Assembly: GCA_017436865.1 (NCBI GenBank)
Contig: JAFSCH010000055.1
Span: forward strand, 1-49,619
DNA from: Lachnospiraceae bacterium
GTDB lineage: Bacteria; Bacillota; Clostridia; Lachnospirales; Lachnospiraceae
Length of the DNA stretch: 49,619 nucleotides
Direction of reading: 5' to 3'
The position numbers and the translations under genes were made by a program. Of this stretch, positions 7,110 through 45,461 are shown piece by piece. Every line of letters begins with the position of its first letter. Position 1 is the stretch's first letter. The notes below the pieces were generated by a model. It was not told the origin of the DNA. It searched no databases and saw only the letters and a list, made by a program, of their open reading frames with translations.

Positions 7110-7880
7110 TCAGCCTCCTATTAATTGAATTGCAAGCATGAAACCACATGCAATTGCACCTGCCCATAAAAAGCATTCAACAAACTTCATCACACCTGCT
7201 ATTGTATCTCCAACTAATACATCACGAATGGAATTGGTCATGGCGATTCCGGGAATCAATAACATAATATCCCCCATCATAATTTTATCCGCATGTAGAG
7301 ATTCAAAAAAACTGGCACAAAAACAGATTCCAACGCCCGCTATAAACGAACATAACACATTAAATATCACATTATTTGGGCAAATTGGCTTTAAATATTT
7401 TTTCAAAAAACAAATTATAATCGCAAAAACAGCAGCTACGATACCATCTTCTAATGCACCATCAAAAAACAATGCAAAACTGCCTGCACCTATTGCACTT
7501 CCTATGCAGCTTTGCAACTGTGAAGTTTTTTTATCCAAAACGGTAATTCTATTCCGAAGCTCATCCACTGTCATTGGATTCTTACAAAAAGAACGACTTA
7601 ATTCATTTAAAGCTTCCAGTCTTTTAAAATCGGTTCCCGACTCATCTATGATTCTTCTTGTCTGTGTCAACTCCGTTCCATCCGCAAACCCCATAGTAAC
7701 AACAATGCTGGATGTAATTACAAATACGTTCATTTTTTTGGCACCATACGCTACTCCCATTCTTATTAACGTATCTTCTACCCTCTTTATTTCTCCGCCA
7801 GCTATTAGCATCATTTCTCCAATATTCAGTAATTCATGCAATAATTCATCAAGTTCACTTATTTCATGCTTTGTATTCAT
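7110..7880 (-). CDS. Threonine/serine exporter large subunit (ThrE N-terminal half, YjjP-like)
   Basis: The start at 7880 (MNTKHEISELDELLHELLN) is preferred over 7898 because AGAGGT lies just upstream of it. The protein (256 residues) has a cytoplasmic N-terminal part with GEMMLIAGGEIKRVEDTL, the DUF1212 signature, followed by TELTQTRRI and about five membrane segments ending in the glycine-rich GDTIAGVMKFVECFLWAGAI. This is the ThrE N-terminal domain. It pairs with the downstream YjjB-like gene in one operon. The split arrangement is usual in Firmicutes. Nothing in the sequence shows what regulates it. Confidence 0.83.
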   Translation of the reverse strand: MNTKHEISELDELLHELLNIGEMMLIAGGEIKRVEDTLIRMGVAYGAKKMNVFVITSSIVVTMGFADGTELTQTRRIIDESGTDFKRLEALNELSRSFCKNPMTVDELRNRITVLDKKTSQLQSCIGSAIGAGSFALFFDGALEDGIVAAVFAIIICFLKKYLKPICPNNVIFNVLCSFIAGVGICFCASFFESLHADKIMMGDIMLLIPGIAMTNSIRDVLVGDTIAGVMKFVECFLWAGAIACGFMLAIQLIGG

Positions 7881-8354
7881 ATTTACCTCTGATACCAAAT
7901 CATTTCTGATTCAATTTTTCTACTATTTTTATAATCCATTATAACAGTTTTTTGGTAAAAATACTCTTTTATTTCCTATTTATGCATTTTGTAATCTTTA
8001 TATATTACTATTTGTAATTCTTTATATATTTCACCGAACTATCCCATATTTAGTAATACATATACTATGCCATAGACTACTATATATCAGAATACTTTTT
8101 GTACTACATTTGTTTTGCCTGTTTTTCAATGCAATCTTTTTTTGCTTATCCACACTACATTTTCTTACGAATTTAACCATAAATACTAAGTGGTGTTTAA
8201 ATAGCAAATTTCAAAATGGTTACTTTTCACACAGTTCCAGTAACGCAAAATCACCCTTAAAGATATTTAAAACTCAATTATATTTACATTTTGTAATAAA
8301 TCATATAAAATTATAAATATAAATATTTACATAATATTGATTTGGAGAGTTACT
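7881..8354. other. AT-rich divergent intergenic region with one DnaA-box match
   Basis: About 470 bp separate the exporter operon from the TetR gene. No convincing coding sequence is present; the longest open stretch (8110-8316) is low-complexity and hydrophobic with no ribosome binding site. A single perfect consensus DnaA box, TTATCCACA, occurs at 8146-8154. The last 80 bp before the TetR gene are almost pure A/T and probably hold its promoter and autoregulatory operator, but I could not define a clear palindrome. Confidence 0.5.
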
Positions 8355-9462: not shown

Positions 9463-9923
9463 TAGAGTAGAGAAATAACAGTAAATGCTATTTCCCTCTC
9501 TTTGATCCGTACGTACGTGTCTCGTATACGGCTCTACAACTTACATTTCAACATTACTTAGGTAATAAGATAAAGGATTTAGCAACCCTGCTGAGTCCTT
9601 TATTTTTGTTTCAAGCAACTCTTTACTGATAATGAAATTTACAACATTCATACCACTTCTTCTGTACCATCCATGTCTGAAATTGGCTACTTTGTAAATA
9701 TCTTCATGGCTAAATCCCATTTGATACTTTCTGTTTAGATAACTGATAGCAGTCCGCCTTGTGGTACACCAGTTTTTGTTGCTTTCTCCAATCCGTTTTC
9801 CATTACTCCTGCACGCAGATATTTGCGTATAAGGTTTAATGTAGTGCTATCGTTTATCTGCTCCCTAAGTATCTGCATTAACTTGTCATGATTTACCTTA
9901 TCAAAGAATGCCTTGCTTGGCAC
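9463..9923 (-). mobile_element. 3' remnant of a group II intron (maturase tail plus domain V/VI)
   Basis: Read on the minus strand, 9923-9735 encodes the reverse-transcriptase piece AFFDKVNHDKLM through TKTGVPQGGLLS. After a frameshift, the end of an LtrA-like maturase follows to TAA at 9543-9541 (QMGFSHEDIYKVANFRHGWY, then NVVNFIISKELLETK). Further on lies GAGCCGTAT...GTACGGATC (9534-9504), the domain V hairpin of bacterial group II introns, and then a domain VI-like hairpin (about 9490-9468). The 5' ribozyme domains and the N-terminal RT are absent, and the middle of RT, including the YADD block, is gone. The element cannot move by itself. It lies just 3' of the flavin reductase gene, antisense. 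Confidence 0.88.
9504..9534 (-). ncRNA. Group II intron domain V hairpin
   Basis: On the minus strand GAGCCGTATACG and CGTACGTACGGATC form the 34-nt-class catalytic hairpin found at the 3' end of group II introns. It is placed correctly downstream of the maturase stop codon. The short loop differs from the usual GNAA tetraloop, so activity is doubtful. Confidence 0.75.
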
Positions 9924-9964: not shown

Positions 9965-10687
9965 TACTCCCTTCCTTTTTTGTATCTCATAATTATCACA
10001 CATTATCAATCTTCGCTATTGCTTAATCTCCACCTACCTATTCATACATATTAGTAAAAACATAAAATTTTCTTATGGCATAACATATATTTTATGTCTC
10101 TATTCTTTTAGCAATTTTTCTCAAATGTTTTCTTTTTTTCTTTTTTTGTTTTTTCTGCATAAATCTTTATTTATATTTTTCATATTCTACTTTCCATTCT
10201 TTATTATACTTTTTTAAACCAAATAACCGTCATTTTTTCATATCTATAAAAAATTTATTTGTTCTCTACTTTTTCTTGTTTTTTACTTTTTACTCATTGA
10301 GTCAATTATCATTTTGAATATATTTGTATTATTACTTTTATATATTTTAAGTATATTGACATATTGAGTCACCAATCTTATTTGTCTTTCACATACAATT
10401 TCTTTGATTTTACTATAAATTTTAGTCTTCAATTGACTCAATTACTCTATAAATTCCATTTATATCTTTACCGTTATTCTTTTATACCTTCATTTCTTTT
10501 AATTTATGAAAGTTATTTATGTTAATAATGATACATTTCTTTCATAAATATTTTTACATAACAGATATTATTATATAAATATGTTATGTAAATCATTGTC
10601 TTTCTTATAATATATTTCCTGTTTAGTAGAATTTTGTTGACTTTATACCATTTCTCTTTAATAATAATTCTATGGAGGTAGAAATAT
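9965..10687. promoter_or_regulatory. AT-rich control region: two inverted iterons, three palindromes, long inverted repeat
   Basis: No gene is visible. The region holds: (a) two 17-bp iterons on the minus strand at 10226-10242 (reverse complement TATGAAAAAATGACGGT) and 10470-10486 (TATAAAAGAATAACGGT), the same motif as the array at 14982-15902; (b) palindromes ATTGAGTCAAT at 10296-10306 and ATTGACTCAAT at 10432-10442, with a half-degenerate copy ATTGAGTCA at 10363-10371, spaced 67 and 69 bp; (c) an 11-bp inverted repeat, TTTACATAACA (10553-10563) and TGTTATGTAAA (10582-10592). Items b and c lie upstream of the XRE gene and are candidate operators. The ribosome binding site TGGAGG is at 10672-10677. 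Confidence 0.7.
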
Positions 10688-11497
10688 ATGGAATATAAAA
10701 ATCATACACAGCAAATTAGAAAAGGCGATCCGCTAGCCAAAATAAGCAACGCAAAAAATCATAATTCTTTGTCTCAACCAAATCAGTTTATTGGTTATAA
10801 ATTAAATACTAGACTTAGAGCATTACGTACCGCAAAAGGATGGTCTCAATCAGAATTAGGCGAAAAATTAGGTGAGACTTTAGGTCAAACAAGCAAAATC
10901 CCAACCTCAACCATTGCCAGTTGGGAACATAAAAATCCTTCTTTAGCTAAGATTCCTTCTCCCGAAAAAATAGAAGCTCTTTCAAAGCTTTTTCATGTTA
11001 CCATCGACTATTTAAAAGGTCTTTCAGATGACCCCAAAAGAACAGCCATTGAATTTATTTCTACACAATCACAAATAAAAAATATTGAAATCCTTCCTCA
11101 GGAACTTGCGCAACATATGGGTGAGCCCATTTGGATTGCAAGTGATTCTTATAATGGTTGGATGTTATTGACAACATACTATGAATTAATTGATTCATCC
11201 GGTGTAACACACTCCGTACATGATATTCGTCAGCAAAATGCGACATTTTCCATTTTTCCTCCTTGTCACGTATATTTCAAGCAGGTATATAATAGATATG
11301 TCATTCCAGAAACTCAAATCCGCAATTACCGCGATAAAATGTGGGTTTGTATCAATTCTCCTGATCCTAAAATGCAAGAACTTAATGGTTGGTATACAAG
11401 AACCCCTGATGGTTTAGGTGTAAAAGGTAAATCTATTTTATCTTTTGATTCCTATTTTGACTTATGGCTTGCTTATACAACTCCATTATCTGACTAA
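10688..11497 (+). CDS. XRE-family DNA-binding protein with unknown C-terminal domain
   Basis: This 269-residue protein has a basic N-terminal arm of about 35 residues, then a lambda-Cro/XRE helix-turn-helix at roughly 38-100 (LRALRTAKGWSQSELGEKLG, then IPTSTIASWEHK, then KIEALSKLFHVTIDYLKGLS). The last 150 residues contain HMGEPIWIASDSYNGWMLL and several conserved-looking aromatic positions, but I recognise no domain. It sits alone between the control region with iterons and the AT-rich tract, ends at a perfect terminator, and points toward parAB. Its place within the replicon-maintenance block suggests a copy-number, replication or partition regulator. That is inference; an unrelated phage-type repressor is the alternative. 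Confidence 0.75.
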   Translation: MEYKNHTQQIRKGDPLAKISNAKNHNSLSQPNQFIGYKLNTRLRALRTAKGWSQSELGEKLGETLGQTSKIPTSTIASWEHKNPSLAKIPSPEKIEALSKLFHVTIDYLKGLSDDPKRTAIEFISTQSQIKNIEILPQELAQHMGEPIWIASDSYNGWMLLTTYYELIDSSGVTHSVHDIRQQNATFSIFPPCHVYFKQVYNRYVIPETQIRNYRDKMWVCINSPDPKMQELNGWYTRTPDGLGVKGKSILSFDSYFDLWLAYTTPLSD

Positions 11498-11500
11498 GAT

Positions 11501-11528
11501 AAACCCATCTATAGATGGGTTTTTTTTA
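11501..11528 (+). terminator. Intrinsic terminator of the XRE gene
   Basis: AAACCCATC and GATGGGTTT (11501-11519 plus following base) form a 9-bp stem with a TATA loop, followed by an unbroken run of T residues. It begins 3 bp after the stop codon at 11497. Confidence 0.92.
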
Positions 11529-11920
11529 TAGAGTATATATTACATGATATAATTTCCATTACATTTTCTCATACATTATGTAATATATTTTATAATTTAT
11601 TATGTTTAGTTTCAATAATTTATAAAATCATTATATTACTATATATACTAACCTTATTATTATATTATTTATACCATGTATATAACATTACTAATTGTAA
11701 TACATTATATAACATTGCCACAAATACATTGCATATTATATATTATGATATATTACGTACTATATTGTTGAACATATTTTAAAAAAACTTTTTGTATTAT
11801 ATAACATATTATAATACATTTGCAAGAAACAATGTATTATATTTCATTTTGTAATATAGAGTATATTATCTATTATTACATATATTATAAAAGAAGCATT
11901 TTATAATATATGTAAAGGGC

Positions 11921-12015
11921 TTTATTGTTAAAACACTTCATGGTAAGTTATATTCTATAATATATTATGTAATATATTATAAATTTCATTGACTTATTTG
12001 TATTTTAACAATAAA
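11921..12015. repeat. Concentric nested inverted repeat
   Basis: Outer arms TTTATTGTTAAAA (11921-11933) and TTTTAACAATAAA (12003-12015) are exact reverse complements. The inner palindrome has 12-bp arms TATAATATATTA (11956-11967) and TAATATATTATA (11970-11981). Both share the same centre at about 11968, so the whole block can fold as one large cruciform. Confidence 0.8.
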
Positions 12016-12024
12016 TGAATCTAA

Positions 12025-12072
12025 TTTTTTTGATATAATAATACTATAAACGTAATTATTATATCAAAAAAA
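12025..12072. repeat. 18-bp perfect stem with 12-base loop
   Basis: TTTTTTTGATATAATAAT (12025-12042) and ATTATTATATCAAAAAAA (12055-12072) are exact reverse complements around a 12-base loop. The T run precedes the stem on either strand, so it is not arranged as an intrinsic terminator. It lies 10 bp from the nested repeat at 11921-12015. Confidence 0.85.
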
Positions 12073-13180
12073 GCTTGATTATTCAACAAATTTTATGTAT
12101 TATATTTTATATGCTATCATTTATTATTTATTATAATAAATGATATATTTTATCTTATCATTTATATCTTTACATTTTACAAGAGAGTAATAATTTTTTT
12201 AATTATTTTATTGTATATTATGTATTACAAGATATATGCTAAATAGTATAACGCATTGTATGGCATGATATAATTTTAATTTCATGGTGTTGTATGTTAT
12301 ACGTTGGTGAATATATTTTTTTAATATATTATATAATACATTATGTATTATACTTAGGGTTACTTTTACTTTTGCATCAATATGTAATACAATTAAGATT
12401 ACTATTATTTTTAGTATTATTATTTGTATTACACGGTGTAATGATATTATTGTTGTTATTTCCATTTGCAATAAGCATCTTATTGCTGTATGTGATATTA
12501 TTAGTATGTTTCATATTAACATCAATACGTTTACTAATATTTATAATAATAATATAACTATTTTGATATATACATTCCATTACTATTACAAATAAGGCTT
12601 GCATTATCATCACTTTTACATCGTATACATTGTACACGTAATGTATCTTGTATATATATGATATATTAGTATTACACATATATTATATATATATATGATA
12701 ATATATTACTAATTCAAATACAATTAGTAATACGTTTGGTAATAGACGTGATATTATTAATTTTTATGTTATTATGTGAATTGCGGCAATTCCTATTAAA
12801 ATAGTTGTAATGCATTACATTCTATATTCTTGCGTATATTATGTAATGTATTACTTGTTATTAGATGTGGTGTATTTTTTAATATATTTTGTATTACATT
12901 GTATTATATATTCTATAGGACATTTTAAAATGTGTTCGAAATGTAAATGGTATTACTTTTTCTAATAATAGTATAAATACACATTGTTGTATAATGTAAA
13001 TTATTAAATGTGTACATTATGATAATGTGTAATATAATAATTAACATAAAATAAAGTAAGATACTTGATATATGATAAAGTTTGTGCTATATTATTAATA
13101 CTAAAACGCAATATATGATATTCTTTTTTCATATATTGTGACTAAAATGACTTAAAACAAGTAAGAAGGGTAGTAGATTT

Positions 13181-14888: not shown

Positions 14889-14981
14889 ATATTGAAATAT
14901 TCTACTATTCAGTAGAACTAACGTTACTTTTTAGTTAATTACGGTATTTATAGCGTTTTTGACTTGTGTAGTCATATTAGG

Positions 14982-15902
14982 TGTGAAAAAATCACGGTGA
15001 AATGCTTAAATGCATAAGATATAAAAAAATAACTGTTAGGTAAGTTGAATTTTTAAGCATTTTATTATATACAGCTTTTTAAAGGAATGAATAAATGACG
15101 GTAAATATATTTATATTATTTGACTCTTGTAGTCATTTAATTGTTTTTTTAATCTTATCTTGTTTTTTAAAACCCTTGATTTTACGCTATTTCGAGATAA
15201 GATATGAAAATTCAACGGTATTTTAAGTAAGATATGAAATTTTCACGGTTATACAATGTCAAAATTTACTTTTATGTAGAACAATTTGAAAGCTATGAAA
15301 GAATTACGGTTCAAAATAGAGATATTTTAAGCAGATGAGTCAAAAAGGTATAAAAAATTTACGGTAATAATTTGTCAAGAAATGAAAAAATTACGGTTCA
15401 TTTTTTATTTAATAAAATATTTTCTGTTAAGCTATGATAAATTGACGGTATAAAATATACAGCAAATAAAGCCTTTCATAGAGATTTAGTAAGATATGAA
15501 TAAATAACGGTAAATGAAACATTTCAATTTGGTTATTTATATTATTAACTATATTGCTATAAACATTCAAATGGAAAGCAAGTTATATTGCCTAAAAGTA
15601 TTTATCTAATGAATATGATTGGTTTAATTATAATTTTCTACAACTATGTTGTATGAAATAGTATGATATTAAGTATGAAAATGTATGATATGTATGATTA
15701 TGTATGAGGGATATGGTAGAACCCAGTATTTATATGAGATAGAGCCATTTTGCTATGAAAAAATCACGGTTAAGTCATGAATGAATAACGGTTATTAAAT
15801 GAAAAAATCACGGTTAGGATATGAAATAATGGCTGATAAGGTATGTAAGAACCACAGTTAAGCCATGAAATGACAACGGTAAGGCTGTGAAAGATTAACG
15901 GT
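14982..15902 (+). repeat. Array of about 17 iterons, 17-bp consensus TATGAAAAAATNACGGT
   Basis: Copies start at 14982, 15019 (degenerate), 15086, 15203, 15233, 15294, 15349, 15381, 15433, 15495, 15754, 15776, 15798, 15820 (degenerate), 15842 (ends ACAGT), 15864 and 15886. All are on the plus strand, and most end in the invariant ACGGT. The last seven are exactly 22 bp apart; the earlier ones have irregular gaps of 30-67 bp or more. The block has no gene. Such arrays are binding sites for plasmid Rep proteins (replication iterons) or for RHH/HTH centromere-binding proteins. Direct position after parAB favours a centromere; the strict 22-bp period also fits an origin. Confidence 0.9.
15651..15707 (+). 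repeat. Six GTATGA words at near-helical spacing
   Basis: GTATGA occurs at 15651, 15661, 15673, 15683, 15692 and 15702, that is every 9-12 bp, in the gap between the irregular and the 22-bp-phased iterons. TATGA is also the left end of the iteron, so these may be half-sites on one face of the helix. Confidence 0.7.
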
Positions 15903-16215: not shown

Positions 16216-17499
16216 ATGAAGGAAAGAGAAATACAGCAGAATGAATGGTATAAAATGGATCTATCTGCTGTTGTATATCCGACATTACAAAGAAGGGATT
16301 TTTCCTCTGTATATCGTTTATCAGTAGTATTGAAAGAAAAGGTTAATCCTAGAATACTTCAGCAGGCTGTTAATATTGGCTTAAAACGATTTCCGACTTA
16401 TAAGGTTGCAATTCGGAAAGGAGTATTTTGGAGATATTTGGAACCAAACAATAGGCCTGGTCCTTTTGTCATGAAAGATATCAAGAATCCATGTATGCCT
16501 ATGCCCTTTAAGTCAAATAACAGATATCCGATTCGATTCTATTATTATGAAAAGAGAATTGCATTTGAGGCACATCATTCTTTAGGAGATGGAACAGGTG
16601 GCATGTATGTACTTCATACAGTGCTGGCAGTTTATTTTAGATTGTTGGGTATACCTGTAAAACCAGGAGGCTTTGTACTAGATGTAGATGAGAAACCAGA
16701 TGCTGAAGAATTAGAGGATGCATATATTCGCTATGCAAGTGCTAAGGTATGTCCACCTCGAATTGGAGAAAAAGCATATCGTATTTGTGGAACAAAAGAA
16801 CCGTTTTATACGTTAAATATCATTGACGGTATTATTTCAGTGCAGGAAGTGAAAAAAGTTGCAGCATCTTATCATGTGACAATAACAGAATATTTGAATG
16901 CAGTATTGCTATATGCATTGATGCAAAAACAAGAGAAGGATTCACCTTATAGATATAGACCTGTAAAGATTGCAATGCCAGTTAACTTAAGGCAGTTTTT
17001 CCCTTCAAAGACTTTAAGGAATTTTATTACAATGGTGTATCCGTCAATCGATCCAAGACTTGGCGAGTATACTTTTGAGGAAATTGTAGAGCAAGTGCAT
17101 AATTTCATGAGATATTATATAACTGAAAAGTTTATGAGGGGAGATATTACAACAAATTATGCAACAAGAGCAAATCCGATTATTAGGATTGCTCCGTTAT
17201 TTATTAAAGATATTGTGGTTAGAGAGTTTTATCGAATGGTACAGGATAAAAATTCATCAGCAGGATTAACAAATATGGGAGTTATGAAGGTTAATCCAGA
17301 TATGGAGCCATATATAGAACGTTTTGATATTTATATGGGACAGCCGTTTTCTACTAGAACCAATTGTGCCATTATAAGCTTTCAGGATACACTCACGATT
17401 AATTTTGCAAGCAGTATCAAGGAAGCAGAAATAGAGCAGTTCTTCTTTCGAAAGCTAGTAAAGGATGGAATACATGTAAGGATTGAAAGTAACCGATAA
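16216..17499 (+). CDS. Condensation-fold acyltransferase (alcohol acetyltransferase-like)
   Basis: This 427-residue protein contains AHHSLGDGTGG at about residues 118-128, the HHxxxDG catalytic motif of CoA-dependent acyltransferases and NRPS condensation domains. The second histidine acts as base, and the C-terminal half has the matching MPVNLRQFFP block. It is stand-alone, without carrier proteins, like the alcohol acetyltransferase/Pap-type group, so it probably moves an acyl group from CoA to a small hydroxyl or amine acceptor. The next gene, 46 bp downstream, encodes a zinc-ribbon membrane protein. The pair looks like one operon and may act on a membrane-associated product. The acceptor is unknown. 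Confidence 0.75.
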   Translation: MKEREIQQNEWYKMDLSAVVYPTLQRRDFSSVYRLSVVLKEKVNPRILQQAVNIGLKRFPTYKVAIRKGVFWRYLEPNNRPGPFVMKDIKNPCMPMPFKSNNRYPIRFYYYEKRIAFEAHHSLGDGTGGMYVLHTVLAVYFRLLGIPVKPGGFVLDVDEKPDAEELEDAYIRYASAKVCPPRIGEKAYRICGTKEPFYTLNIIDGIISVQEVKKVAASYHVTITEYLNAVLLYALMQKQEKDSPYRYRPVKIAMPVNLRQFFPSKTLRNFITMVYPSIDPRLGEYTFEEIVEQVHNFMRYYITEKFMRGDITTNYATRANPIIRIAPLFIKDIVVREFYRMVQDKNSSAGLTNMGVMKVNPDMEPYIERFDIYMGQPFSTRTNCAIISFQDTLTINFASSIKEAEIEQFFFRKLVKDGIHVRIESNR

Positions 17500-17545
17500 G
17501 TATTGGGGCAGGAAGAATTAAGAATAAGTGTGTCGGGAGGAAAAA

Positions 17546-18247
17546 ATGTCATATTGTGTAAATTGTGGTGTAGAATTAGATGCCACGTTAAAAAAATGTC
17601 CGTTATGTGAGACGATAGTTTATCATCCTGGAAAAATGGAAGTGAATACACAGGAAACTTTTCCGAAAAAAAAGGGTGAGGTAGAAACGGTTAGTAAGAA
17701 AGAGAGTATTATCTTTGTGTCAATATTGCTATTTACAATAGCGGTGACTTGTGCGTTACTAAATATTCTTGTGTACAATCGTAATTGGTGGTCAATACCA
17801 GTCAATGGTGTATGTATTACGTTATGGGTATTTTTTATGGCTGCTATATTCTGTGAAAAAATAACGGTTTACGGAATGTTACTACTAGATGCTATTGCGA
17901 TAGGGAATTATTTGTTTATGATTTCATTGATAACAAGTTCGGATCATTGGGTAATTATGATTGGTTTACCAATTTTGGTTGTTACATTTGGATTATTAGA
18001 GCTTTCTGTGTTTCTGAGTAAAAAGCTTCCGTCATCTTTGTTGACCGGTACGTTATATTTCTTTGTAACGATTGCAGGAGTATGCATTACCGTTGAAGCA
18101 ACCATTGATAATTATTTAAGAGAAGTAATTCGTTTAGGATGGTCAGCAATTGTAGTAACGGTTTGTGCGATCATATCTGTCTTTATTATCTTAATAATGA
18201 TGATGGGAAGATTAAGAAACAGTATTAGGCGCAGATTGCACTTTTAG
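17546..18247 (+). CDS. Zinc-ribbon integral membrane protein (DUF6320-like)
   Basis: The start at 17546 follows GGGAGG at 17535-17540; the upstream GTG at 17528 has no site. The 233-residue protein opens with a zinc ribbon, CVNCGVELDATLKKCPLC (two CxxC pairs), then a short charged linker and about six hydrophobic segments ending in a basic tail (RLRNSIRRRLHF). I recall this architecture beside stand-alone condensation-fold acyltransferases in Lachnospiraceae, as here, so the two probably work together. The role is not known. Oddly, the codons for CEKITV (17852-17868) spell a perfect copy of the iteron found at the partition locus 2 kb upstream. Confidence 0.7.
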   Translation: MSYCVNCGVELDATLKKCPLCETIVYHPGKMEVNTQETFPKKKGEVETVSKKESIIFVSILLFTIAVTCALLNILVYNRNWWSIPVNGVCITLWVFFMAAIFCEKITVYGMLLLDAIAIGNYLFMISLITSSDHWVIMIGLPILVVTFGLLELSVFLSKKLPSSLLTGTLYFFVTIAGVCITVEATIDNYLREVIRLGWSAIVVTVCAIISVFIILIMMMGRLRNSIRRRLHF

Positions 18248-18355
18248 GATTGATAGATGAAAATCCTTAAATGAAAGAAAAAATACATGAACGAGAGCCT
18301 CATAGTATCTTAGGGGCATAAAAACATATGATAAATGAAAAAGAAAGGCAGGTAT

Positions 18356-19000
18356 ATGCAAATGAATGAAAACAGAGATGTAAGAAACAAATTGTTGGCA
18401 GAGAAAGTGATTAAAGGATTACAGTCTAGGAATATGGAAGGATATTTTGTGCAGACAAAAGAGGATGCATTGAAAATGGCATTAAATTTTATTCCAACGG
18501 GAGCTTCTGTTGGATGGGGAGGTTCTGCATCGATAGAAGAAATAGGACTCAAAAAAGCTGTATGTGAAGGTAATTATGTAGTTTATAATAGAGATGCATG
18601 TAAGAGCCCTGAGGAAAAAAGGGAAACAGAAATGAAAATTTTTGGATGTGATTATTTTCTTTCAAGTAGCAATGCAATCACAGAAGATGGCATTTTAGTT
18701 AATATCGATGGGAATTCAAATCGTGTTGCGGCAATAGCTTATGGTCCAAGAAATATTATTATGATTGTTGGCATGAATAAAGTGACAAAGGATGAAGAGG
18801 CGGCGATGTATAGAGCTAGAAATGAGGCAGCAACTATCAATGCACAAAGGTTTCCGATTGATACACCGTGTAAAAAGAATGGTGCTTGTGCAAATTGTAA
18901 ATCCATGGATACCATTTGTTGCCAATTTCTAACTACTAGATTTTCAAGACATAAGGGACGTATAAAAATCATTCTGGTCAATGAAAATTTAGGCTTTTAA
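18356..19000 (+). CDS. LUD-domain protein (lactate-utilisation type, DUF162)
   Basis: The start at 18356 follows AAAGGCAGG. The 214-residue protein fits the LUD family: SVGWGGSASIEEIGL (conserved gly-rich loop), NAITEDGILVNIDGNSNRVA (the strongest family block), GPRNIIMIVGMNKVTKDEEAA, and a C-terminal cysteine cluster CKKNGACANCKSMDTICC. In LutC and LutB the domain acts in lactate oxidation, but short stand-alone LUD proteins of anaerobes have no proven role. The Cys cluster may bind metal or an Fe-S cluster. It is followed 14 bp later by the TetM-like GTPase gene, which suggests co-transcription but no obvious functional link. Confidence 0.85.
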   Translation: MQMNENRDVRNKLLAEKVIKGLQSRNMEGYFVQTKEDALKMALNFIPTGASVGWGGSASIEEIGLKKAVCEGNYVVYNRDACKSPEEKRETEMKIFGCDYFLSSSNAITEDGILVNIDGNSNRVAAIAYGPRNIIMIVGMNKVTKDEEAAMYRARNEAATINAQRFPIDTPCKKNGACANCKSMDTICCQFLTTRFSRHKGRIKIILVNENLGF

Positions 19001-19014
19001 GAGGTTTGACATAA

Positions 19015-21690
19015 ATGAAAACAAGTAATATAGTAGTTGGAATTCTAGCACATACAGACTCAGGAAAAACTACACTTTCTGAGAGTTTGTTGTACTTGAA
19101 CGGTAGTATAAGAAAATATGGGCGTGTTGATCATGGTGACACATTTTTAGACACGAATCGACTGGAAAAGTCAAGAGGAATTACGATATTTTCCAAACAG
19201 GCACAGTTTAAACTTCCTGATAAAAATATAACTTTACTGGATACGCCGGGACATGTTGACTTTTCGGCAGAGATGGAGAGAGTGTTGCAGGTGTTGGATT
19301 ATGCGATATTGGTTATTAGTGGAGCGGATGGAATTCAAGGACACACACAGACTTTGTGGAAGCTACTGAAGATATATCAGATTCCAACATTTATATTTGT
19401 TAATAAAATGGATCAGAATGGAACAGATAAGTTAAATATATTAAGTGAAGTGCAGCGTAAACTTTCGGAATGTTGTATTGATTTTGGACAGGGTAAGGAA
19501 ACAGAAGTGTTTTATGAGCAAATAGCAATCTGCGATGAAAACCTGATGGAGACTTATCTGGAGAATGGGATTGTTGATATGGAAATGATCCGAGAGGCAA
19601 TTCGCGAGAGGAAAGTATTCCCATGTTATTTTGGTTCTGCATTAAAGCTAGAAGGTGTGGAAGAATTACTTATGGCAATGAATGAAGATATGCTTTGTAA
19701 GAATTACCCAGAAGAATTTGGTGCAAGAGTTTTTAAGATTGTACGTGATGAGCAGGATAACAGACTTTCGTATATGAAGATTACTGGTGGAAAAATGAAG
19801 GTTAAGGAGCTTTTGACGAATGTAAAAGAAGGTCAAAAGGGAAATGAGAAGGGGTGGAATGAAAAAATAGATCAGATAAGGATTTACTCGGGCAGTCAAT
19901 ACAAACTTACTGACGAGGTAGAGGCTGGAATGGTATGTGCAGTAACTGGCTTATCTAGTACGTTTTGTGGAGAAGGGTTAGGGATTGAAAAAGAACCTGA
20001 AGTGCCAGTGTTAGAACCGGTGCTGACTTACAGAGTCAAAACACCAGCAGAGACGAATATTCATACGCTATATATTCAATTGTGTCAATTAGAGGAAGAA
20101 GAGCCGGAGTTACATATTGTATGGGATGAGGATTCGAAAGAAATTCATGCACAGGTTATGGGTGAGGTGCAGATAGAGATTTTAAAAAGTCTGATACAGG
20201 AAAGGTTTCATGTAGATGTGGAATTTGATTCTGGTAGTATTGTTTATAAAGAGACAATAGAAGAACCAGTGATAGGAATAGGCCACTTTGAACCTTTACG
20301 TCATTATGCAGAAGTTCATCTTATGTTGGAGCCGTTAGATAGAGGAAGTGGTCTTGAATTTGTAACGGATTGTAGTGAAGACATACTTGATCGAAATTGG
20401 CAAAGATTGATTTTGACTCATTTAGAGGAGAAGAAGCACAAGGGAGTACTTACTGGTTCAGAAATTACGGATATGAGAATTACTTTAGTAGCTGGAAGGG
20501 CACATTTAAAACACACAGAAGGAGGCGATTTCAGACAGGCTACTTATCGCGCGGTTCGTCAGGGATTAAAGGCAGTAAAGTCGAAATTGTTAGAACCTGT
20601 GTATGAATATCGTTTAGAGGTTCCTCAGGAAATGGTGGGAAGAGCTATGACGGATATACAGAGAATGTGTGGAAACTTTGATGCTCCAATCATAGAAGAT
20701 AATATGGCGGTTCTTATAGGAACGGCTCCTGTGGTTACCATGCAGAATTATCAACGAGAGGTAATTTCATATACAAGAGGACATGGTAAATTATTTTGTG
20801 CATTAAAGGGATACGAGTTATGTCACAATGAAGATGAAGTAATTGCAGAGAAGGGATATGACTCTGAAAGTGATGTGGACAATCCGACAGGCTCTGTATT
20901 CTGTTCGCATGGGGCAGGGTTTGTAGTTCCATGGAATGAAGTTCCTTCTTATGCTCATGTAGAATATGGAAGAGGTAAAGAGGAAAAGGTGGAAGAAGAA
21001 CCGATTACGCCAATAAAGGAAAGAAAAGCATATTTAGAAGGTGTGATTGGACAAGAGGAAATAGAAGAAATTTTTGCTAGAACATTTGGTAATATTAAAA
21101 AAGAGAGAACTGGATGGAAACGAACCATAACAGCACCTTCGCAGGATGAATATAAGGGAAGTAGTACATATAGTACAAACAAAAAGCTTCAGGAATATTT
21201 ATTGGTAGATGGCTATAATATTATCTTTGCGTGGGAAGAGCTTAATGAATTAGCAAAGGTAAATATTGATAGTGCAAGAGACAAACTGATGGATATTATG
21301 TGTAATTATCAAGGCTATAAAAAATGTGAACTTATTCTTGTATTTGATGCCTATAAGGTTGCTGGAGGAAAAGGAGAAATCTTTGACTATCATAATATTC
21401 ATGTAGTTTATACAAGAGAGGCAGAAACGGCGGATCAATATATTGAGAAATTTACACATGAAAATGGAAAAAAGTATGATATTACAGTAGCGACATCTGA
21501 TAGATTAGAACAGATGATTATATGGGGAGCTGGTGCAAAACGAATGTCTGCATCAGGTCTTTTAGAAGAGGTCGAAGGAATCAAACAGGAAATCAGTGAA
21601 CATTTGGCACAAAAGACGATATCAGAGAAAAATTATTTATTTGATCAGTTAAAGGATAAAAAGAAGAATCTGATAAATGAGCTTTACTAA
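19015..21690 (+). CDS. TetM/EF-G-like ribosomal GTPase fused to a NYN (YacP-like) nuclease domain
   Basis: This is 891 residues, compared with about 640 for Tet(M). The N-terminal part is a ribosome-protection or EF-G-type translational GTPase: G1 AHTDSGKTT at 12-20, SRGIT switch I, DTPGH, NKMDQ, then beta-barrel, domain III and domain IV/V-like regions (GVLTGSEITDMRITLVAGRA, then SYTRGHGKLFCALKGYE). From about residue 728, LLVDGYNIIFAWEEL begins a NYN/PIN-like domain with conserved acidic positions (D732, then VFDAY, ADQYIE, VATSDR), related to YacP/Rae1, an A-site mRNA endonuclease in Bacillus. The fusion suggests ribosome binding coupled to RNA cleavage. Whether it gives tetracycline resistance is uncertain; the domain order recurs in Lachnospiraceae as far as I recall. 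Confidence 0.88.
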   Translation: MKTSNIVVGILAHTDSGKTTLSESLLYLNGSIRKYGRVDHGDTFLDTNRLEKSRGITIFSKQAQFKLPDKNITLLDTPGHVDFSAEMERVLQVLDYAILVISGADGIQGHTQTLWKLLKIYQIPTFIFVNKMDQNGTDKLNILSEVQRKLSECCIDFGQGKETEVFYEQIAICDENLMETYLENGIVDMEMIREAIRERKVFPCYFGSALKLEGVEELLMAMNEDMLCKNYPEEFGARVFKIVRDEQDNRLSYMKITGGKMKVKELLTNVKEGQKGNEKGWNEKIDQIRIYSGSQYKLTDEVEAGMVCAVTGLSSTFCGEGLGIEKEPEVPVLEPVLTYRVKTPAETNIHTLYIQLCQLEEEEPELHIVWDEDSKEIHAQVMGEVQIEILKSLIQERFHVDVEFDSGSIVYKETIEEPVIGIGHFEPLRHYAEVHLMLEPLDRGSGLEFVTDCSEDILDRNWQRLILTHLEEKKHKGVLTGSEITDMRITLVAGRAHLKHTEGGDFRQATYRAVRQGLKAVKSKLLEPVYEYRLEVPQEMVGRAMTDIQRMCGNFDAPIIEDNMAVLIGTAPVVTMQNYQREVISYTRGHGKLFCALKGYELCHNEDEVIAEKGYDSESDVDNPTGSVFCSHGAGFVVPWNEVPSYAHVEYGRGKEEKVEEEPITPIKERKAYLEGVIGQEEIEEIFARTFGNIKKERTGWKRTITAPSQDEYKGSSTYSTNKKLQEYLLVDGYNIIFAWEELNELAKVNIDSARDKLMDIMCNYQGYKKCELILVFDAYKVAGGKGEIFDYHNIHVVYTREAETADQYIEKFTHENGKKYDITVATSDRLEQMIIWGAGAKRMSASGLLEEVEGIKQEISEHLAQKTISEKNYLFDQLKDKKKNLINELY

Positions 21691-21756: not shown

Positions 21757-22119
21757 CTATGAATTAACATAGTTTTTGATTGCATCATAACTTTCTTTGC
21801 TTAAGATATGTTCCATTTTACAAGCATCCTCAGAGGCTGTTTGTTCAGGGACACCAAGTTTGGTGAGCCACGATGACAAAAATTCATGTCTTTCATAAAT
21901 CATTTCGGCAATTTCTTTTCCAGAATCGGTTAGATAGATAAAACCTGCATCTGTTACAGTAATATGATTCTTTTCACGAAGATTCTTCATGGCAATGCTG
22001 ACACTGGATTTCTTAAAGCCAAGTTCATTTGCAATGTCAACAGAACGAACAACAGGAAGCTTTTTGCTTAATCTTAATATGGTTTCTAAATAATTTTCAG
22101 CTGATTCATTAACATTCAT
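21757..22119 (-). CDS. DtxR/MntR-family metal-dependent repressor
   Basis: The start at 22119 (MNVNESAENYLETILRLSKK) follows AAAGGAG; 22167 has no site. The 120-residue protein has the DtxR winged helix (VRSVDIANELGFKKSSVSIAM KNL) and the helical dimerisation and metal-binding region HEFLSSWLTKLGVP, then SEDACKMEHILS. The CxxEH block is the metal anchor of iron-type DtxR/IdeR proteins, while MntR has HxxEH, so iron sensing is favoured. It has no C-terminal SH3 domain, as usual in short Firmicute members. FeoAB lies 10 kb away and a Mn-type riboswitch 2.5 kb away; no direct link can be shown. Confidence 0.85.
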   Translation of the reverse strand: MNVNESAENYLETILRLSKKLPVVRSVDIANELGFKKSSVSIAMKNLREKNHITVTDAGFIYLTDSGKEIAEMIYERHEFLSSWLTKLGVPEQTASEDACKMEHILSKESYDAIKNYVNS

Positions 22120-22346
22120 GTATAAATTCTCCTTTAAAAAGCCCCTAATTTTTCTACAGTATAGCATGAAATGGAAGAAGTTTCAATGTGTGAAAAAATG
22201 AAACATATTGTTTGATTAACAAATGTAGATATGATAGAAAAAAACATACTGAATAAATATATGTATACAGTAAAAAAGATAGAGATATATTTGGTAATGT
22301 GTTAAGATAATAAGAAATATAGCGTCTTAATAAAAGGAGTCAAACT

Positions 22347-27682: not shown

Positions 27683-28687
27683 ATGAACATTTCATATAAA
27701 GCATCAGATTTTTACAATAAAATATCTTCTAATGGAAATTCATATGTTTCCTCGTATCGCAAGAATGTTAGAGAGGCAGATTTGAATGTACAGAATTTAC
27801 AGAAGGATATTGAGCGTTTTCGAAAGAGTGTGCGTAAGCTTAAAAATTTTGATCCTGATACTATAACAAGTAACAAGCTTGAGAAATATTTAGAGAATTT
27901 TTCTGAGTCTTATAATAAATTAAAGGATTCTGGTGAAAAAATTACAGATAAGGAATTGTCAAAAACATTATCTAATCTGGATGATTTTATGAAAGAGAAT
28001 AAGAAGAGTTTGAAAAAACTAGGGTTAAAGGAGTCAAATGGAGAATGGGAATTTGATAGTGAAGAGTTAGAGGAGACAAAAGAGTCAGATGTTAACAAGA
28101 TGTTCAAGGGAAAAGATGCACTATTCAAGAAGCTGGATAAGCTAATGCGTAACGTTGAAAAGAAGGCAGATGAGGAAGAGTATCAGATTGTTTTGCGAAA
28201 GTTTCGAACAGTTACAAAATTCAGTGATGAGGAGATGTGGCAAGGTAGCTCTGCATTTTATGCTCAAAGGGTAGTTGGTGGGCTACAGGAGCTTAATATG
28301 CAGGTGCAGAATTATGATGCGGCTATAAACGATGCGGATACGACACAAGATATAAAGGAAGGTATCGATGCTTTTGTATGGGCATATGATGATCTTCTTA
28401 CAAAGGCGACAGATTCAGTTAGTAATTATACCAAATATATGATAGAGAAAACGAAGGAAGCAGAAACAGTTAATAACTTTTCGAAACTTGGAATTACGGT
28501 TGAAGATGATGGAAGATTGAAGTATTATTCAGATGCTATTATAAATGATACCTTTAAAGAAGGATATGCAGCACTCTTTGGAGAGAATGCTGCATATGGA
28601 AATCTAATGAAACAGTATGCGAAAGATATTTTTAATATAACGATGAAAACAGAAAGTCTTGGTATTACCATTGACAGTTATGCGTAG
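27683..28687 (+). CDS. Hypothetical helical protein with FliD-like repeats of motif
   Basis: The start at 27683 follows GGAGGAG at 27671-27677. I do not recognise the family with confidence. The 334-residue protein is hydrophilic, has no signal peptide, and is rich in Lys, Glu and Asp with coiled-coil-like stretches (residues about 25-60). Two short blocks, LKKLGLKESNGEWEFDSEEL and LGITVEDDGRLKY followed by ALFGENAAYGNLMKQYAKD, resemble the LGIT-x-DGxL-x-LDxxxL...LF motif near the C-terminus of flagellar cap protein FliD. A distant FliD or adhesin-like relation is possible. Its 3' end overlaps the convergent HAD gene by 10 bp. Confidence 0.6.
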   Translation: MNISYKASDFYNKISSNGNSYVSSYRKNVREADLNVQNLQKDIERFRKSVRKLKNFDPDTITSNKLEKYLENFSESYNKLKDSGEKITDKELSKTLSNLDDFMKENKKSLKKLGLKESNGEWEFDSEELEETKESDVNKMFKGKDALFKKLDKLMRNVEKKADEEEYQIVLRKFRTVTKFSDEEMWQGSSAFYAQRVVGGLQELNMQVQNYDAAINDADTTQDIKEGIDAFVWAYDDLLTKATDSVSNYTKYMIEKTKEAETVNNFSKLGITVEDDGRLKYYSDAIINDTFKEGYAALFGENAAYGNLMKQYAKDIFNITMKTESLGITIDSYA

Positions 28688-29499
28688 AAACCAAAATGTT
28701 TCAAGGCCTGGCCGATACCGTTTTTGCTGGATTTAGCGGTTACATAGGCAACTTGTTCGAAAAGTGAGACTGGAAAAGAGTTCCCCATTGCAATGCTATG
28801 TTTTACATAGGTGAGCATAGAGAGGTCGTTATTGCTGTCTCCGAGTGCATAGGCATTTTCTAATGGTAGACCGAAGTGGTCAAGAATGAATTGGATGCCT
28901 GTTGCTTTAGAGTAGCCGTGTGGTACGAATTCGCGAAAGACTCCGCCGCGGTCGATACAAGTGAAATATTTATCACTTACTGTTCGGAATTCGGCTAAAT
29001 CATTGATGTTATCAAACCATACAACAAATTTATCACATGTGAAATCATCGCATTCGGGATCATGTGACATATCACAATTGCAGTTTATAAAAGTATTGTA
29101 TTGACGTATTCCACCAGGAGTAACAAGAGGTCGTTTGGTATCGAAACGAACCTCTTGTTTTGACTCAAAGAGTAAATCAAGAGAGAAGTTTCTAGCATGT
29201 GTTAAAATCTCAGATACAACTTGATGTGACTGTTCCACATGAAGAAGTTCTTCTAATTTTCCGTTATTGTTGCAAAAAATATTTGTTCCGCAACCACAAA
29301 CATAACCATCAAATCCTATTTCGCGGAAGCGTTCTTCTACATAATCCATACAACGTCCGGTGTTTATAAACATAAGATGTCCATTCTCTCTTGCTCTGCG
29401 GATTGCTTCTTTGGTGTCATGAGGTATAGAGCCATCTATTTCAGAAGTAAGTGTGCCATCAATATCAAAAAATGCCACTTTTCGATTCATCATTTTCAT
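28678..29499 (-). CDS. HAD-superfamily Cof-type phosphatase
   Basis: The start at 29499 (MKMMNRKVAFFDIDGTLTSE) follows AAAGGAA. The 273-residue protein has HAD motif I DIDGT, motif II INTGR, and motif III/IV LGDSNNDLSML, with a C2-type cap between them. This is the Cof/YkrA class that removes phosphate from sugar phosphates or nucleotides such as FMN precursors. The substrate is not predictable. A double stem-loop (29522-29584) lies immediately upstream in its 5' leader, and a near copy precedes the XRE gene at 46277. Its last codons overlap the convergent hypothetical gene. Confidence 0.88.
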   Translation of the reverse strand: MKMMNRKVAFFDIDGTLTSEIDGSIPHDTKEAIRRARENGHLMFINTGRCMDYVEERFREIGFDGYVCGCGTNIFCNNNGKLEELLHVEQSHQVVSEILTHARNFSLDLLFESKQEVRFDTKRPLVTPGGIRQYNTFINCNCDMSHDPECDDFTCDKFVVWFDNINDLAEFRTVSDKYFTCIDRGGVFREFVPHGYSKATGIQFILDHFGLPLENAYALGDSNNDLSMLTYVKHSIAMGNSFPVSLFEQVAYVTAKSSKNGIGQALKHFGFYA

Positions 29500-29521
29500 A
29501 ATTATTCCTTTCTCAGATTCT

Positions 29522-29584
29522 GCGAATTTGAGCAAAGCACAAATTCGCCGTGTGAAAAATCTTTCGTCTATGGATTTTTCACAC
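29522..29584 (-). repeat. Double stem-loop leader element (copy 1)
   Basis: Two adjacent perfect hairpins: GCGAATTTG (29522-29530) with CAAATTCGC (29540-29548), and GTGTGAAAAATC (29550-29561) with GATTTTTCACAC (29573-29584). It lies just upstream of the HAD gene's ribosome binding site. A similar pair lies at 46338-46375. Function unknown; an mRNA-stabilising or dispersed palindromic element is possible. Confidence 0.75.
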
Positions 29585-40269: not shown

Positions 40270-40977
40270 CTATAATTCATTCTTATTTTTATAAATCATT
40301 CCAAAGTAGGTATGTTTTATATATTTGCTTTGGTTCATTAATACATCTATGATATTACCGGATACCTTCCCTTTTTCCCATCTTTCTAGCTCATGTATCA
40401 TTCCTAGTAACTGACCAGAACGTTTTGTGAGTGTTGCAATTTCCATTTCCCATTTCGCAAGAGTTTTTAGGGTACGTTCATCCAAAGACGATTTCTGCTT
40501 AGCAAAATGTGCGATATCACCATAAGCTTCATCCAATAATTGCAGTTCTTCTTCCATGGTCAGCTTTCGATATCCGGATTCTGCCTCATCATCTTGAACA
40601 TATCTAGTTCTTGCACCTGTTTGATAACCTTCCATAATTTCATGATACAGTTTTTGATATGTCTTAGAAAAGCATTCAACCATATTTTGCTCAGTAATGC
40701 CAATATGACTATTTACCATTTTATTATACTCTTCATAAAAACTAGACAACATATAGTCATCCATTGTCATGTTTCCTATGTATTCCCTTTGCTTTTCCAG
40801 TTCTTCAATTGTAATATTGTTTGCATTGTTAACATGTTCTCTACCAATTCTTGATATACTTAATTTTACAGCACAGTTTTCATTCAATGTATCATTTCTG
40901 CTAACATTTTTTCGTTGTTCCATGCATTTATCTACCGACAAAGTATTTATCATACTTGTTATAGAATCTATTTTCAT
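40270..40977 (-). CDS. Hypothetical soluble protein, last gene of the agrDB transcript
   Basis: The start at 40977 (MKIDSITSMINTLSVDKCME) is chosen because GAGGTG precedes it; the upstream GTG at 40986 overlaps that site. I do not recognise the 235-residue product. It has no signal peptide or membrane segment and is strongly helical and acidic (MTMEEELQLLDEAYGDIAHF, then SLDERTLKTLAKWEMEIATL), with a basic end. It starts 19 bp after the secreted PPC-domain gene and shares its orientation, with a strong terminator after it. It is therefore probably expressed with agrD-agrB. A cytoplasmic helper or a leaderless exported partner of the PPC protein are both possible. Confidence 0.7.
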   Translation of the reverse strand: MKIDSITSMINTLSVDKCMEQRKNVSRNDTLNENCAVKLSISRIGREHVNNANNITIEELEKQREYIGNMTMDDYMLSSFYEEYNKMVNSHIGITEQNMVECFSKTYQKLYHEIMEGYQTGARTRYVQDDEAESGYRKLTMEEELQLLDEAYGDIAHFAKQKSSLDERTLKTLAKWEMEIATLTKRSGQLLGMIHELERWEKGKVSGNIIDVLMNQSKYIKHTYFGMIYKNKNEL

Positions 40978-40996
40978 TGAAAACACCTCGCTTATA

Positions 40997-42478
40997 TTAG
41001 AACTTATACAAAGTCATAGAATAGGGATTAGTAAATGTAATACTATTTGTTCCAACAGGTGCAAAATCGTAAAAATAATTGTATGATACAATATCAACCA
41101 ATTTTCCAGTACTTGGATCAACTAATACAATTACAGCATCCATTTCTGTCCATAATGTATTCATTGAATATGAGCCAGTTCCTCTACAATGTATTGCATA
41201 AAAATCGTCAGCTGAATTATATGTAAGCATTAATACTGCACGACTACCTACATTCATAGCTGGGCGTGTGGAACTTACATAATGTACTGCAGCCGGACCA
41301 CTTGCATCATCTCTGATACTAGCATAAACATCATCTCTATGATTAATCGAAATGTTATAAGATTGAGAACCAGCTGAATTTGAAGAACTGGATTTATATG
41401 AATAGTTTATATTAATTTTGTTACCGTTAACATAGCAATTCTTACCTAAACTGTCTGATTGAAAGTTTATATTTGCTTTATCACATATACCAATTATTTC
41501 AATTGAACTGTCAACAACGTCAAATACTTTAGAAAATTTAACTGTGTAAGCAGAGGTAGTAGAATAATTTTTATCTTGACTATAAACTACAAAATAATAA
41601 GTTCCAGCATTAACCTTAACTGTATTAGTAGAGGCATCAACTGAATAAATTGCTGCGTTACTTCCTTCTTTTTTGGCAAATAGTAACGAGTAACCTGTTG
41701 AAGATGAAATAGAATATTTCATAATCATAGGATTTGATACAGTTAATTTGTAATAATCAACGTCGAAAGTACTGTCAATTATTCCTGTAGTACTTGAATT
41801 AATACTAACACTGGTTGCTGTATCATATGTATCATTAACTTCATTAAGCGCATCCGTTGAACTTTGGAAGTAGGCAAATGCATAATCGCCAGTCCCTTCA
41901 TAGCCTGAAACGGCAAAATAGTAAATTCCTGCATCTAAAACGGTGCTAACATATTCAGAATTTCCAGTACCTGAAACGGCACTTCCACCAATCAAAGACA
42001 ATTGATAGCTAGTTTCATCCAATTGAAACATATATAAGTCTGCATCTAATGTTTCAACCATCTGTAATAATATCGTTATTTTACTTTTTTCATTTAATCC
42101 AAACGCATACCAACGCATCTCGTTTACATTTAAAATACTTCCCTGATATACAGTATCATGATTAACAGCATAGGCATAGTTCGGGTCAGTATTCTCGGCT
42201 ATATCACAAGTGTTAATTGGATTTACATACATTACTTCGCCTTCATAAGTTCTTTCAAGAACATTAGTTTTTTCTTCTGGTATATTAGTAGCATCCATTT
42301 CTGATTCAGCTATTTTAATATACTCCATATCCGTTCTTTGATTCTCTTCAAGTATGCTTTCTTGAGTTATTTCGCTTTCGTTAGCATAAACAGAAAGTGT
42401 TGGCAAACATACATTACTCATTACCAACAGACCACTGAGTATATAAGATACCATTTTTACATTCTTTTTTCTAAACAT
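40997..42478 (-). CDS. Secreted protein with two PPC (pre-peptidase C-terminal) beta-domains
   Basis: This 493-residue protein begins with a clear signal peptide (MFRKKNVKMVSYILSGLLVM, cleavage likely after VYA near residue 32). Residues about 105-210 and 215-310 are two PPC-like beta-sandwich domains (ILQMVETLDADLYMFQLDE...LDAGIYYFAVSGYEGTGDYA, and DVDYYKLTVS...VNAGTYYFVVYSQD). The last 180 residues are Ser/Asn/Tyr-rich and of unknown fold. PPC domains usually accompany secreted proteases, but no protease motif is visible. It lies 13 bp downstream of agrB with its own AAAGGGG site, so it is probably made when quorum signalling is on. It may be a surface or carbohydrate-binding effector. Confidence 0.82.
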   Translation of the reverse strand: MFRKKNVKMVSYILSGLLVMSNVCLPTLSVYANESEITQESILEENQRTDMEYIKIAESEMDATNIPEEKTNVLERTYEGEVMYVNPINTCDIAENTDPNYAYAVNHDTVYQGSILNVNEMRWYAFGLNEKSKITILLQMVETLDADLYMFQLDETSYQLSLIGGSAVSGTGNSEYVSTVLDAGIYYFAVSGYEGTGDYAFAYFQSSTDALNEVNDTYDTATSVSINSSTTGIIDSTFDVDYYKLTVSNPMIMKYSISSSTGYSLLFAKKEGSNAAIYSVDASTNTVKVNAGTYYFVVYSQDKNYSTTSAYTVKFSKVFDVVDSSIEIIGICDKANINFQSDSLGKNCYVNGNKININYSYKSSSSNSAGSQSYNISINHRDDVYASIRDDASGPAAVHYVSSTRPAMNVGSRAVLMLTYNSADDFYAIHCRGTGSYSMNTLWTEMDAVIVLVDPSTGKLVDIVSYNYFYDFAPVGTNSITFTNPYSMTLYKF

Positions 42479-42491
42479 ATTATATCCCCTT

Positions 42492-43073: not shown

Positions 43074-43074
43074 A

Positions 43075-43236: not shown

Positions 43237-43310
43237 GTCGTACCTCCATTTGTTTTTATTATCAATAAAATTTTCGTTTAAATACGCAAACAAATCAACC
43301 CTCTTAACAA

Positions 43311-43340: not shown

Positions 43341-43341
43341 A

Positions 43342-45414: not shown

Positions 45415-45461
45415 TTGATTCCCCCCAACTATAGTCTTTATATTTCGTGATTATAACATTT

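Follow-up and report, generated by a model that had tools for sequence, protein, structure and literature searches.

The locus analyzed here raises the question of what purpose is served by an array of short iterated sites located directly downstream of a parA-parB gene pair in a Lachnospiraceae bacterium. The original prediction was that of a combined origin and segregation site, in a replicon that replicates by means of a protein other than a recognized Rep. The stretch of DNA that was analyzed, referred to as the window, is a contig of 49,619 nucleotides; its features are compiled in Table 1. As discussed below, it is probable that the array lies at the bidirectional-replication origin of a small, circular, chromid-like secondary replicon, which is found in some gut bacteria, within part of a single Lachnospiraceae genus. 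Two relatives have replicons of about 21 and 28 kb; that of the source genome would measure at least about 50 kb, provided that all of the contig is part of it. From its gene neighborhood and by analogy, the array is likely to be a centromere, i.e., a segregation site, as well.

Table 1. Features of the locus and of the DNA around it. Positions refer to the window unless another molecule is named.
Feature	Position	Strand	Remarks
Reverse-strand iterons, two, upstream of xre	10226-10242, 10470-10486	-	17-mer search
TGACTN5AGTCA, two one-mismatch copies	10290..10371	.	upstream of xre
xre, HTH_3 protein, initiator candidate	10688..11497	+	HTH and conserved C-terminal part
AT-rich gap, xre to parA	11498..13180	.	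81% AT; possible unwinding region
parA, Walker ATPase, 265 aa	13181..13978	+	Pfam AAA_31 4e-36; PHROG ParA-like 3e-41
parB-like, putative centromere-binding protein, 293 aa	13979..14860	+	alignment of 6, AlphaFold2, Foldseek
TCTACTN4AGTAGA palindrome	14901..14916	.	just ahead of array
TGACTN5AGTCA, two exact copies	14960, 15121 (14960..15135)	.	array start
Iteron array	14982..15902	+	15 good 17-bp sites and 2 degraded units in register
Spaced sub-array	14982-15511	+	first part of iteron array
22-bp-phased cluster, seven units	15754..15902	+	22-bp spacing recurs in all 7 scanned loci
Acyltransferase-like gene (below Pfam cut-off), DUF6320, LUD-domain protein	16216..19000	+	
EF-G/TetM-like GTPase fused to YacP-like NYN domain	19015..21690	+	replicon marker
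MntR-like regulator (below NCBIfam cut-off)	21757..22167	-	
Extra iteron pair	COE1 circle 20576, 20700; G012 17404, 17538; G004 (reverse) 22184, 22340		

Matches to the 17-mer with up to three mismatches number 19 in the window, as compared with a mean of 1.59 and a maximum of 5 in shuffled sequences (0 of 100 shuffles reached 19), and 14 of them lie on the same strand between 14982 and 15902. A 16-mer scan with the same tolerance detects 15 sites in that interval. The array had been described as having about 17 copies; it is real, and 15 of these are good same-strand sites, but the remaining two are degraded units that stay in register. The exact 22-bp step ascribed to the last seven units, which start at 15754, 15776, 15798, 15820, 15842, 15864 and 15886, is borne out, though the fourth unit lacks ACGGT and the fifth has ACAGT instead. 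Two of the 19 sites match without any mismatch, namely those at 15754 and, on the reverse strand, 10226. Sites that the original prediction had not included are the reverse-strand pair at 10226 and 10470, upstream of xre, and another at 17852.

Across seven loci, 85 sites define a fuller iteron unit of 22 bp, TAAGNTATGAAAAAATNACGGT; two of these sites, both from the same genome (G031), fall outside the array. Within the unit, ATGA and ACGGT are separated by about one turn of the helix, and the 22-bp length makes up about two; the iteron sites would thus stack on one face of the helix. The core of the unit, ATGAAANNNNNACGGT, is matched exactly at 12 sites of the 4.2-Mb assembly, and 8 of these sites are in the window. 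That is, the repeat is not common genome-wide. When one mismatch is allowed, the genome-wide counts (87 + 70) are barely higher than those of a reversed-pattern control (77 + 58).

The same arrangement, i.e., xre, an AT-rich gap, parA, parB and the array, in that order, is conserved in relatives of the same genus. An array of the same motif follows parB in all seven loci that reach far enough, while an eighth contig, that of G017, stops short. The series of spacings, of about 38, 66, 118, 30 and 61 bp, followed by a gap and the 22-bp steps, is common to the window, G021 and G012, and is retained in part by COE1, G028 and G004. In six of six loci, xre is preceded by a reverse-strand iteron at a distance of about 460-580 bp, with a second one in the window and G021 only. 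The five xre-parA gaps scanned, all of them AT-rich (81-87%), are free of iterons. In addition, a goat MAG (RGIG1692) carries 11.8-22.6 kb of the window unbroken on its contig, at 98.9% identity. A conserved extra pair of iterons (Table 1) was also observed between genes that, by eye, are epimerase-like and transporter-like.

The parB gene was detected in 8 of 38 genomes of the genus, the source genome included, and in two genomes of a 396-genome sample of the family, both from the same genus, along with one marginal short match. For xre, the 38 genomes yield a long match in seven, a partial match that contains a stop (G034) and an end fragment (G017); neither gene was seen in 27 of the 38. 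Outside the genus, XRE has one weak match among 396 genomes of the family and one among 393 of the order, both sets being draws from larger groups. One genome, G023, has an intact solo xre (68% identical; L120 16799-17605) within a 585-kb contig, with no parB in the genome and no array in the 36 kb examined around it. The replicon itself may be inherited vertically. The DnaA proteins of G000 and G021 are 95% identical, and those of COE1 and G012 91%; the corresponding ParA identities are 94% and 93%. This parallel between the pairwise identities of replicon proteins and DnaA in the closest pairs suggests vertical descent; among more distant pairs, ParA identities of 85-88% are non-discriminating. 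As a side observation, two full-length dnaA genes, 61% identical, are found in G000 (C17 and C164), consistent with the 7.7% contamination reported for that bin.

As the original prediction anticipated, the GC skew does change at this locus. In the window, the GC3 skew of the plus strand is negative to the left of the locus and positive between 16.2 and 40 kb, regardless of gene strand; the right arm has a single minus-strand gene of at least 150 aa (28678-29535), with the skew sign of that arm. Two genes at 8.3-9.5 kb have a skew near zero, and those at 40.3-49.4 kb are mixed and off-pattern. The latter block (40270-49358), which encodes a GHKL kinase, a LytTR regulator, an HTH protein, a CHC2 zinc-finger protein, a DUF4143 protein and an iron-type alcohol dehydrogenase, is perhaps a later insert. 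Separately, a minus-strand ORF at 9735-9923 resembles, by eye, part of the reverse transcriptase of a group II intron.

The origin was located by a strand-corrected GC3 scan, in which the fit includes a gene-strand term, and the sign of the fitted term tells an origin from a terminus. The tied best origins are at 14.5-16.75 kb in the window (array, 14.98-15.90), at 9.75-10.25 kb in COE1 (array, 10.03-10.87) and at 14.5-15.0 kb in G028 (array, 13.75-14.63); fits within 0.03 R2 extend over 13.75-16.75, 9.75-11.25 and 13.25-15.0 kb, respectively. The R2 values for COE1, G028 and the window are 0.73, 0.80 and 0.955, versus 0.24, 0.34 and 0.48 for gene strand alone. This first scan took mechanically called ORFs with a minimum length of 140 aa, restricted in the window to those that end before 40.2 kb; a repeat with all of them gave an unchanged interval, with an R2 of 0.84. 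The fits rest on 16, 20 and 27 such ORFs, some of them spurious, e.g., that at 7138-7944 in the window, antisense to the ThrE gene. The minima of the cumulative skew, at 10.0 kb in COE1, 14.5 kb in G028 and 15.0 kb in the window, agree with the fits. The maximum at 40.0 kb in the window would be opposite the origin on a 49.6-kb circle, which is suggestive only. In these plots the array was set mid-circle and the curve does not return to zero, so that the place of the maximum depends partly on the cut.

A replication origin at the stretch from xre to the array is therefore supported by the skew data; the strand switch coincides with the array both in the window and in the circles of two relatives, in line with the original prediction. 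With little skew in xre, parA and parB, and with fits based on ORFs that are partly spurious, the exact start may lie elsewhere within this stretch. The dnaA genes of the same genomes are on other contigs, with a skew switch of their own.

That the locus belongs to a replicon, as also claimed at the outset, is upheld by the copies in two relatives. In G028, the first 77 bases of a 28,119-bp contig (C32) recur at its end, defining a 28.0-kb circle; when closed, xre lies 1.6 kb before parA, matching the unbroken order of the other contigs. An alignment of 3,491 bp (95.6%) with a contig from a separate MAG (G017:C201) spans this junction without a break. Given the overlapping ends and the independent assembly, we conclude from these sequences that the G028 copy is a circle. 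In COE1, a strain from the mouse gut, the ends of the 21,300-bp contig overlap by 75 bp, for a 21.2-kb copy; this overlap may be a flanking direct repeat, as the adjacent ORFs resemble transposase pieces by eye. The G009 contig breaks on either side of the origin region, with its start beyond the array region and its end shortly past xre, and that of G004 lacks xre and terminates just upstream of parA. The contig of the window has no terminal overlap, and joining its ends yields no convincing continuous gene; for the window itself, a separate molecule is thus only presumptive.

The proteins of the locus were characterized by profile searches and predicted structures. ParA is short, with no N-terminal HTH DNA-binding domain, and its Walker A motif is KGGTGKTT. 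In an alignment of six, ParB has a conserved N-terminus, a disordered, Pro-rich linker and a C-terminal domain that is ribbon-helix-helix-like. AlphaFold2 predicts two helices in this domain (259-272 and 276-291) at a pLDDT of about 90, with the rest modeled poorly and the strand absent; Foldseek returned three matches in all, each to Arc repressor and weak (best E 1.6), and no Pfam family was matched. The predicted structure of XRE is good in the HTH only, and too poor to use elsewhere; this HTH is similar to those of P22 c2, SinR and ImmR, none at E <= 0.001. No match to a Rep family was found among the scanned proteins of the locus, the other window proteins and 10 proteins of the G028 circle, a scope that leaves some circle ORFs outside (SDR-like, epimerase-like and small ORFs). 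Profiles with RepA in their names are ParA-type models, matched by parA far under the cut-off. The original prediction thus holds in this respect too, with no recognized Rep among the proteins scanned. A candidate that was considered and rejected is that XRE is a known plasmid Rep: its sole plasmid match with over 80% coverage, on Butyrivibrio pCY186 (28% identity), lends no support, because pCY186 carries other proteins that are annotated as replication initiators.

A mechanism can be proposed in which replication would start somewhere in the stretch from xre to the array. XRE, with host DnaA in most relatives, would initiate replication near the array; its targets would be the palindromes, the iteron ahead of the xre gene, or both. 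The ribbon-helix-helix-like ParB would bind the phased iterons, and ParA would move the ParB-iteron complex and so segregate the replicon; the pairing of proteins with motifs is the weakest step of this scheme. XRE is the best, though unproven, initiator candidate; it need not be the initiator, since G023 has an intact solo xre with neither parB nor a nearby array.

Two palindromes are present at the locus. TCTACTN4AGTAGA is exact in the window, COE1, G012 and G028, and has two mismatches in G021 and G004. TGACTN5AGTCA, at up to one mismatch, has 12 copies in the window (10290, 10357, 14960, 15121, 19159, 19884, 20024, 20859, 25905, 29161, 39329 and 39562), as compared with 1.4 in shuffles; some copies are intragenic, and none lies in the first 10 kb. 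Eight replicon contigs carry 41 copies versus about 4.4 expected, and 190 kb of chromosome samples carry 3 versus 4.1 expected. No excess like that of N5 was found for spacings of 3, 4, 6, 7 or 8, and G021 alone shows no excess (1 versus 0.5). In the source genome, the window holds 12 of 85 sites and 4 of the 5 exact ones, on a contig that makes up 1.2% of the genome. The genome-wide total of 85 is below that of a reversed-pattern control (99); the palindrome is therefore concentrated on the replicon contig, rather than enriched genome-wide. By analogy only, a dimeric XRE protein would be a natural binder of this motif. Around the solo xre of G023, the 20 kb examined contain no palindrome with up to one mismatch, which is uninformative on the motif of XRE.

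A competing explanation, doubtful but the most resilient, is that XRE is a new type of Rep that binds the iterons, with ParB acting on another site, and that the array serves chiefly in replication control, as an incompatibility locus. Array-type loci of this kind are known in P1 and F. The 17-bp sites are asymmetric and spaced at a 22-bp step, a reverse iteron lies upstream of xre in all six loci, none lies in the five xre-parA gaps, and a DnaA box is found upstream of xre in five of six, all of which would fit a Rep. On the other hand, HTH domains of the P22 c2 and SinR type usually bind palindromes, and a replicon-concentrated palindrome does exist; moreover, xre is present without parB in G023.

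Alternatively, the locus could be a centromere, with host DnaA starting replication at the region upstream of xre, and XRE being a regulator only. We consider this unlikely. An exact, same-strand DnaA box is indeed located within 350 bp upstream of xre in five of six loci, and the gap is very AT-rich; the window is, however, the exception, with no such box there. Each of the five regions has a single exact box, as opposed to 3, 3 and 5 in three 20-kb stretches around dnaA, and the skew fit favors the array over the region upstream of xre. Over the whole window there is no excess of DnaA boxes (20 matches with up to one mismatch versus 20.0 expected), and it is the region upstream of xre in the relatives alone that is conspicuous for them; matches to a dif-like terminus site are scattered only.

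It is quite improbable that the element is an ordinary plasmid, phage-plasmid or integrative element with no special standing. Its ParA is of a common plasmid type, with 118 plasmid records at E <= 1e-10, all below 60% identity. However, parB is unmatched among plasmids (72,556 records), phages (50,697 records) and the viral contigs scanned, which argues against a plasmid or phage source for this gene; the replicon identities parallel those of DnaA in the closest pairs, a family-core gene is aboard, and no relaxase, integrase or phage family was recognized among the 10 scanned proteins of the G028 circle. Finally, integration of the element in the main chromosome of the source genome, as a second chromosomal origin or a recent insertion, would account for the lack of terminal overlap, the ordinary genes of the left flank and the off-pattern genes at 40.3-49.4 kb, but is very improbable, as the skew signs persist for about 10 kb to the left and 25 kb to the right whatever the gene strand, 12 of 85 palindrome sites fall on 1.2% of the genome, and the copy of a relative is circular.

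Our preferred reading, i.e., a secondary replicon with its origin at the array, gains its chromosome-like character from the GTPase gene. This gene was found in 134 of 150 genomes of the family, five of them single-contig (G085, G095, G129, G215 and G219). In this genus it is present in 13 of 38 genomes, always on contigs of 3.5-49.6 kb, not all of which extend to the origin locus; contig size is uninformative in very fragmented bins, and the informative genomes are COE1 (contigs up to 1.1 Mb) and G028 (up to 306 kb). It accompanies parB or xre in 10 of 11 genomes, versus 3 of 27 that have neither (p = 6e-6). The GTPase is missing from 25 of 38 assemblies of the genus versus 15 of 148 genomes of other genera, a comparison in which cut-offs and completeness filters differed; with quality filtering, the figures are 9 of 18 versus 15 of 145 (p = 1.5e-4). 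It may be that bins lose the small circle; the alternative is a true loss of the gene. Among the neighboring genes, the acyltransferase-like one is common to G020, G028 and G009, the DUF6320 gene to G020 and G009, and the MntR-like regulator also occurs in G028, G012, G004 and G009, and is absent from the COE1 circle.

Chromids are recognized, among other traits, by a core gene that is chromosomal in relatives, and the GTPase is such a gene. In terms of composition, which in chromids is close to that of the chromosome, the GC content of the replicon is below that of chromosome samples by 1.0 (window), 2.5 (G028), 0.5 (G012) and 6.0 (COE1) points; once the origin region is excluded, the differences become 0.1, 0.3, 2.6 and 3.2 points, and the dinucleotide distance is 0.028-0.052, versus 0.011-0.075 for 20-kb pieces of the COE1 chromosome (1 of 14 stretches, L096, with a GC of 0.095, was dropped as presumably mostly masked). 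As to maintenance and replication, which in chromids are of the plasmid type, ParA and ParB are present, and the scanned proteins include no recognized Rep. In size, chromids usually exceed the plasmids that reside with them. Because the circles, of 21.2 and 28.0 kb, are far smaller than reported chromids, the comparison made here, we call the replicon chromid-like, rather than a chromid. A fuller claim, which we put forward tentatively, is that of a vertically inherited mini-chromosome of 21-50 kb, possibly genus-wide, with an iteron origin, an undescribed XRE-type initiator, a scattered palindrome of its own as a mark and the sole copy of the family-core translation GTPase. If right, a core gene has moved off the main chromosome, and the initiator is outside the Rep families searched.

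Among known systems, the iterons of P1, F and RK2 are of about 17-22 bp and have a step of about 22 bp, with an AT-rich region and DnaA boxes, and par genes are nearby in P1 and F. The layout of the array resembles theirs; unlike in those plasmids, no Rep-type initiator was found among the scanned proteins. The delta/omega system of pSM19035 (inc18) is similar in that it combines a ParA-type ATPase, a ribbon-helix-helix ParB (putative here) and a parS of short repeats; ParA is, as in delta/omega and ParF/ParG, short and without an N-terminal HTH. Omega sites are reported at the promoter of the cop gene as well (PMC4498918), to which the iteron upstream of xre is a parallel. However, the sites of delta/omega are contiguous heptads in promoters, whereas here they are 17-bp sites with a 22-bp step, downstream of parB, and the ParB proteins, of 192-302 aa, have a disordered linker, unlike omega. 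The delta/omega repeats also overlap the par promoter, while none of the five xre-parA gaps contains an iteron; since omega-type partners bind the promoters of their own operons, this weakens the notion that ParB binds the iterons.

None of the matches listed, all from open-licence papers, is a published account of this replicon. As a secondary replicon of Lachnospiraceae, it resembles the Butyrivibrio chromids BhuII and pINBov266. pINBov266 has parB at a GC-skew switch and a recognized repA (PMC5716241, PMC6249431), unlike the replicon described here, among whose scanned proteins no Rep is recognized; BhuII, at 91,776 bp, was in 2017 described as the smallest of the reported chromids (PMC5716241), unlike the 21-28 kb circles. 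If our interpretation is right, this chromosome-like replicon is thus well below the smallest reported chromid that was found (91.8 kb; PMC5716241, 2017). Its size is within the range of the rrn plasmids of Persicobacteraceae and Aureimonas, small, long-term carriers of core genes that measure 13.7-25.9 kb in three Persicobacteraceae (PMC10645730). All rrn plasmids in that study have Rep_3 initiators, unlike the replicon described here, among whose scanned proteins no Rep_3 was recognized, and whose core gene is a GTPase, not rRNA.
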